A stretch of 27,048 nucleotides of DNA, from IMG/VR virus record IMGVR_UViG_3300017917_000438, positions 1 to 27,048 of that record; one strand, 5' to 3'. Positions within the stretch are counted from its first letter, which is position 1. Every line of letters starts with the position of its first letter. The stretch is from a virus. Below the pieces are notes generated by a model. The model had not been told where the DNA came from, did not search any database, and saw only the letters and a program-made list of their open reading frames with translations. Positions 24,879 through 24,953 of this stretch are shown here, piece after piece. Both the position numbers and the translations under genes were made by a program.

Positions 24879-24953
24879 TGGTGCACCAGGTGGGGATCGA
24901 ACCCACTTCCAAGAGCTTTAGAGACTCTAGCTTGACCATTCAGCTTCTGGTGC
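24879..24953 (-). tRNA. tRNA with anticodon CTA (amber-suppressor type)
   Basis: This is a 75-nt tRNA including an encoded CCA end. The acceptor GCACCAG / CTGGTGC pairs perfectly with discriminator A. The anticodon stem AGAGT / GCTCT (one G-T pair) closes loop CTCTAAA, giving anticodon CTA, which reads UAG codons. The variable loop is 5 nt and the T arm GTGGG-TTCGATC-CCCAC is perfect. The D stem is short (GCT/AGC, 3 pairs) and position 8 is A rather than the usual T. The amino acid cannot be assigned from the identity elements that I can see. Confidence 0.88.

Follow-up and report, generated by a model that had tools for sequence, protein, structure and literature searches.

In the 27,048-base IMG/VR virus record IMGVR_UViG_3300017917_000438, referred to here as the window, a transfer RNA (tRNA) gene with the anticodon CUA is followed 0.87 kb downstream by a gene, F1, whose third codon is the amber stop TAG (AAGGAG...ATG(24010)-TCA-TAG(24004-24002)-ATT-GAA). 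We propose, with a probability of about 0.87, that this tRNA is a dedicated amber suppressor that gates F1 (24010-23303, minus strand) by readthrough of the early stop in a phage using the standard genetic code. Sequence comparison establishes that the tRNA is sound, that the early UAG is conserved and that the sequence past it is coding, as well as the linkage of tRNA and gene, the recurrence of such gates in two unrelated families and a joint switch of codon and anticodon. Without the phage tRNA, ribosomes starting at ATG 24010 would halt after two residues, with host release factor 1 acting at the UAG. Once the tRNA was made and charged, an amino acid would be inserted at the UAG and the whole F1 protein would follow. 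The tRNA and its target would form a translational AND gate in which the stop codon is the lock and the tRNA the key; readthrough in infected cells, and a delayed or conditional expression of F1, are steps that this scheme proposes.

The amber tRNA and its relatives

On the minus strand of the window, ARAGORN detected all of its seven tRNA genes, one of them with the anticodon CTA. The original prediction of such a tRNA at this position, which named no strand, was borne out by Rfam RF00005, which matched it over its full length (58.6 bits, E 1.8e-10) with no unpaired stem position. Its score lies within the range of the other six window tRNAs (57.5-71.4 bits) and not far below it, the outcome that had been named as refuting. 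The acceptor stem is paired at 7/7 positions, the anticodon stem has 5 bp including one U-G, the T arm is perfect, the loop reads C-U-CUA-A-A, CCA is encoded and the discriminator base is A73. An A at position 8, pointed out earlier as unusual, is a real feature and not damage, as 20 of the 53 distinct amber tRNAs related to it share this base. The D arm with A8 is common mainly to other CTA tRNAs and some phage tRNA-Met(CAT) genes; an exact D-arm search with the window tRNA in viral contigs gave no match.

Among the amber tRNAs linked to F1-type genes, 53 are distinct, and 370 of 371 of their acceptor-stem cells are paired, with many compensating changes. A73 is present in all 53, and G1-C72 and C2-G71 in almost all. 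Because the acceptor stems stay paired despite sequence change and A73 is universal, the window tRNA is very probably functional.

The tRNA-Pyl label assigned by ARAGORN was rejected, since it reflects only the CTA anticodon. A tRNA-Pyl has a 6-bp anticodon stem, a 3-nt variable loop, a single linker base between acceptor and D stems and a D loop without GG, whereas in the window tRNA the anticodon stem has 5 bp, the variable loop 5 nt and the linker two bases, and the D loop contains GG. Bacterial tRNA-Gln is recognized by U1-A72 and G73, and both elements are absent here, G1-C72 and A73 standing in their place. Glutamine is an unlikely inserted residue because of A73 and the G1-C72/C2-G71 pairs. 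Under the E. coli identity rules, U35 together with A73 would point to lysine, so that lysine rather than glutamine would be our guess.

Some amber tRNAs (L331, L362, L375, L383 and G020:C1:29884-29952), with an unusual D arm or the loop TTCUAAA, were missed by ARAGORN. Suppressor-tRNA counts from such tools are therefore probably low.

A conserved amber codon at the start of F1

The ordinary gene call for F1 begins at 23932 (open reading frame (ORF) 23303-23932) and drops the first beta strand of the protein. Upstream of the annotated Met, the conserved F1 frame runs 23 more codons up to the in-frame TAG. To assess conservation, the best 80 of 301 viral-contig relatives from a profile search were compared. 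All 80 have an early TAG just past the start, never TAA or TGA, and ahead of it a Shine-Dalgarno sequence (SD), an ATG and 1-9 codons. Within the 23-codon TAG-to-Met stretch, third codon positions hold 69% of the nucleotide differences, and 13397 codon differences are synonymous against 4978 non-synonymous. By this pattern, the codons past the TAG evolve as coding sequence. As expected of programmed readthrough, the in-frame stop of F1 is conserved and the sequence is constrained on either side of it: third-position bias downstream, and SD, ATG and 1-9 codons upstream. The AlphaFold2 model of the protein had a mean predicted local distance difference test (pLDDT) score of 84, with a core of about 95, and placed a beta strand at residues 2-12 past the TAG with a pLDDT of about 95.

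A second sample contained 46 distinct F1 copies, of which 42 were TAG-gated and 4 had lost the gate; for both samples combined, the count is 91 of 95. A search of 39 loci and contigs, most of them with an amber tRNA (nearly all), found relatives of the F1 ORF in 25. A CTA tRNA was found within 10 kb in 73 of the 80 F1 loci (69 by ARAGORN and 4 more by pattern), and in five of the seven loci lacking one the gene lies at most 215 bp from the contig start. Where found together, the two genes are usually on the same strand. Neither F1 nor a CTA tRNA was found in 80 loci (838 kb) around relatives of the window helicase.

The same gene emerged from a blind scan of 81 contigs for the pattern SD-ATG-(up to 12 codons)-stop-ORF. 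With TAG as the stop, the scan yielded a single family of 82 members, and TAA or TGA gave nothing comparable. A search of all frames for internal TAGs that are conserved was dropped, because antisense frames of conserved genes dominated its output. Rhizobium phage RHph_I1_18 has a gated, unannotated F1 (ATG AGT GAG TTC ATG TAG), with a CTA tRNA directly past the gene.

To get an idea of its function, F1 was compared with known families and structures. It matched no Pfam or PHROG family, and searches against PDB sequences gave weak WW-domain-like matches only. Residues of about 23-52 show a WW-domain-like pattern (PMW...GKTYYVEHVECNVPWTTKETP), with weak matches to eukaryotic WW domains (E 0.1-1). 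A likeness of residues of about 94-161 to ACT/ferredoxin-like folds (Foldseek, VIA-align; Z at most 7.3) was discarded, as it reflects common arrangements and is not meaningful. A bacterial genome collection held one partial F1 relative, in Paenibacillus.

Other gated families and the codon-anticodon switch

When amber-tRNA loci without F1 were scanned blindly, two unrelated gated families appeared: F2, which is PTH2-like, and F3, which is HD-like (PHROG 14850). Against Pfam PF01981 (PTH2), the best F2 score was 19.8 bits and so fell short of the gathering cut-off, which is 23; the family is therefore called only PTH2-like. The start ATG-(1-2 codons)-TAG is seen for F2 in the cultured phages Serratia BF, Erwinia SNUABM_12, CBB, GAP32, XbC2, Kaldavass, ME3, Arash and pT24, and for F3 in XacN1 (MK-TAG-TIKAMK...) and RAS14. 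Every one of these cultured jumbo-phage genomes carries a CTA tRNA. In K64-1, the F2 ATG lies downstream of any stop, and a CTA tRNA was not found by pattern or ARAGORN. In addition, six of the cultured-phage genomes (L398, L399, L400, L401, L407 and L408, relatives of Eneladusvirus/Mimasvirus) have a conserved internal TAG in F3 (ISELDTG-TAG-GD...LLEVYGKIK), which breaks the gene into fragments in its GenBank record.

The gate codon and the anticodon change in concert. Phage Phosso has a CTA tRNA and a PTH2 gene that starts ATG AAG TAT TAG. Its homolog in Atu_ph07 (72% identity over 132 residues) starts ATG ATT GGC GAA CAC TTT TGA, giving MIGEHF-TGA-INYEEL..., and Atu_ph07 carries a tRNA with the anticodon UCA. 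Likewise, in the viral contig L521 a UCA tRNA, the sole tRNA found there, ends just upstream of a TGA-gated ATG. On this sequence evidence, the pairing of TAG with CUA and of TGA with UCA is difficult to account for if the tRNA does not read the gate.

The base next to the gate was also compared. A purine on the 3' side favours amber suppression. Of 135 distinct gated TAGs, 134 have A or G as the next base (91 of 91 for F1 copies alone), while in the F1 loci the base behind an ordinary TAG stop is T/A/G/C in 44/33/23/18 cases and thus a purine in 56 of 118.

These data also bear on another reading of F1, in which the TAG is the real stop of a leader of 2-4 codons that regulates expression, translation of the main frame begins by re-initiation or at a non-standard AUU start adjoining the stop, and the tRNA is incidental. 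Two-codon leaders can regulate bacterial translation, and an ATT directly follows the TAG in 76 of 80 F1 genes. However, any stop would serve re-initiation, yet F1 has TAG only, and the TGA stop goes with a UCA tRNA. The codon after the stop varies in F2 and F3 (AAT, GTT, ACT, ATC), and the SD suits the ATG and not the post-stop codon. We consider this reading improbable, although it fares best among the alternatives to gating.

The genetic code of the phages

The original prediction had likened the tRNA to those of some crAss-like and Lak phages, which recode TAG late in infection. The amber-suppressor type is supported by the fold and the 53 relatives, but the ORF length and density data speak against a genome-scale recoding. 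Long genes in the window read in code 11. Treating TAG as sense changed the mean ORF length from 250 to 248 amino acids (aa) in the window and from 284 to 289 aa in the contig G019, while in the positive control Lak-A1 it rose from 237 to 312 aa and coding density from 0.66 to 0.90. Four large contigs with the same type of tRNA were tested, namely G019 (233 kb), G018 and G017 (166 kb each) and G020 (155 kb), and in none did ORFs become appreciably longer or coding density higher. In contigs with an amber tRNA of the window type, TAG terminates about 4-14% of long ORFs. In the window and in four relatives, no TAG-terminated genes with conserved C-terminal extensions were seen. The CTA tRNA is the sole tRNA found in G019, which makes a general role in codon usage less likely.

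Global TAG recoding (code 15) was therefore rejected on the coding-density tests against the Lak control; the phage shows neither in-frame TAG in many genes nor the density gain that go with this code. The tRNA seems instead to act on one gene or a few whose amber codon directly follows the start. A narrower version holds that TAG is recoded across many late genes, the window containing early ones. A CTA tRNA is what such phages carry, and a 27 kb fragment could hide late genes. The four large contigs show no ORF gain, unlike Lak-A1, and TAG still ends long ORFs in contigs carrying such a tRNA, which leaves this version with a very small probability.

Evidence against gating and the role of the tRNA

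Several observations weigh against the gating of F1 and its counterparts, or against a one-to-one rule for tRNA and gate. F1 is ungated despite a nearby CTA tRNA in L530, L532, L534 and L563. Twenty-three PTH2-like homologs are ungated though their phages carry a CTA tRNA and, conversely, six TAG-gated PTH2-like loci have no CTA tRNA within the flank. The SD-ATG-stop-ORF scan found no convincing gated gene in G017, G018, G020 or PhT2; the last, whose tRNA is the most similar among cultured phages, was scanned over its whole genome. The tRNA may therefore have further uses, or targets that were missed. The counts are not independent tests, because the sequences are related by descent; three unrelated families and two stop/anticodon pairs are more independent evidence than the counts. 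The ungated F1 starts read ATG GAA ATG... or ATG ATA GAA... and look like losses of the gate.

CTA-tRNA phages in which the scan found no gated gene would suit the view that the tRNA acts mainly on host UAG stops during host takeover and that the phage gene merely adapted to it. This view leaves unexplained the TAG at codon 2-10 in three unrelated families and the TGA/UCA pairs, and we regard it as highly unlikely. Least credible of all, and already contradicted by covariation, is a drifted, functionless sense tRNA: the nearest sense bodies are phage tRNA-Met(CAT) genes sharing the A8 D arm, but CTA, A73 and paired acceptor stems are kept in 53 divergent relatives and the tRNA is linked to TAG-gated genes.

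Gating by a suppressor tRNA remains our preferred explanation for F1. It is also quite likely, if slightly less so, that large standard-code phages widely use suppressor tRNAs as keys for a few stop-locked genes, with UAG/CUA and UGA/UCA switching together.

Genomic setting

The window encodes a DnaB-like helicase, a primase and a UvsW-like helicase. By the window helicase, the closest cultured phages are the jumbo phages PA5oct/MIJ3 (47%) and Atu_ph07 (45%), and relatives of it occur in several hundred viral contigs. The features of the gate are listed in Table 1. Homologs of the zinc-ribbon gene between the tRNA and F1 lie near an amber tRNA in several other contigs. Elsewhere in the window, an apparent glycan or sugar-modification gene cluster spans 13163-22974. 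Judged by eye, it contains UDP-galactopyranose-mutase-like, NAD-dependent epimerase-like and glycosyltransferase-like proteins, and two similar oxygenase-type paralogs (15204-15980 and 17628-18419). A predicted multi-pass membrane protein at 26491-27039 resembles, also by eye, the Bax-inhibitor-1 family.

Table 1. Features of the amber tRNA and F1 in the window, and TGA-gated genes in other phages.
Feature	Position	Strand	Basis
tRNA(CUA), amber-decoding type; encoded CCA, G1-C72, C2-G71, A73, A8	24879-24953	-	ARAGORN; Rfam RF00005, 58.6 bits; covariation in 53 distinct relatives
Anticodon CUA inside loop CUCUAAA	24919-24921	-	ARAGORN (anticodon position 33)
Zn-ribbon gene between tRNA and F1, 248 aa, C-terminal zinc ribbon	24079-24825	-	tblastn; Pfam Zn_Ribbon_1, E 6.8e-7
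Shine-Dalgarno AAGGAG of F1	24017-24022	-	Sequence
F1 start codon ATG (ATG TCA TAG)	24008-24010	-	SD-ATG-TAG layout in 80 best homologs
Conserved in-frame amber codon UAG, third codon of F1, next base A	24002-24004	-	Sequence; homolog conservation
Post-amber reading frame, 232 aa, putative gated protein F1	23306-24001	-	Codon conservation; AlphaFold2
F1 terminal stop, also UAG; readthrough would append about 11 residues	23303-23305	-	Sequence
TGA-gated PTH2-like gene	L316 (Atu_ph07), about 3934-4384		Genome with UCA tRNA
TGA-gated PTH2-like gene	L521, about 9971-10300		Locus with UCA tRNA

Discussion

Amber suppressor tRNAs have been reported in the standard-code jumbo phages XacN1 (PMC5852040) and RsoM2USA (PMC8504454), and an opal one in Atu_ph07 (PMC6102473). 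These resemble the present case in having a phage tRNA with a CUA (or UCA) anticodon and a standard code. The reports defined no target, whereas here a specific conserved target is seen, also in XacN1 and Atu_ph07. The XacN1 authors examined readthrough of 18 amber stops and found no target (PMC5852040); the two-codon leader was probably absent from their gene list of amber-terminated genes. In code-15 crAss-like and Lak phages, where TAG is reassigned to Gln (PMC9523058, PMC6784885), a phage tRNA(CUA) likewise decodes UAG. In those phages UAG occurs frequently as a sense codon across many genes, while here it keeps its role as a stop at all but one or a few early positions.

Pyrrolysine and selenocysteine decoding also rely on a dedicated tRNA that reads a stop in particular genes, but the tRNA described here has no Pyl-type anatomy, and the stop adjoins the start codon and not an active site. 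As in viral programmed readthrough, the functional product would need a stop to be read through. The classical cases involve near-cognate host tRNAs and C-terminal extensions; here, the tRNA would be a cognate one from the phage and nearly the whole protein lies past the stop. A further parallel is a synthetic suppressor-tRNA feed-forward loop, the 'leak dampener' (PMC7969014), in which an amber-bearing gene is expressed only with the suppressor tRNA. That circuit is engineered, and the phage system would be its natural counterpart. In the openly licensed literature, we found no description of stop-gated phage genes paired with suppressor tRNAs, although priority cannot be claimed from this.

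For years, suppressor tRNAs have been recorded in phages with the standard code while no target was known for them; the present analysis offers a specific, testable one in this phage and in cultured phages. Phage gene callers appear to miss or truncate systematically a class of conserved genes. From the sequences, the same lock-and-key pairing is found again in many unrelated large phages and looks like a switch of translation that arose naturally in viruses with an otherwise standard code. It suggests a natural equivalent of the gene switches that synthetic biology has built from suppressor tRNAs, and may also represent a stage between the standard code and the complete reassignment of a stop codon. 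If the proposal is true, these phages would possess a natural codon-level regulatory circuit that was overlooked in genome annotation, since gene calling truncates, splits or omits the locked genes.
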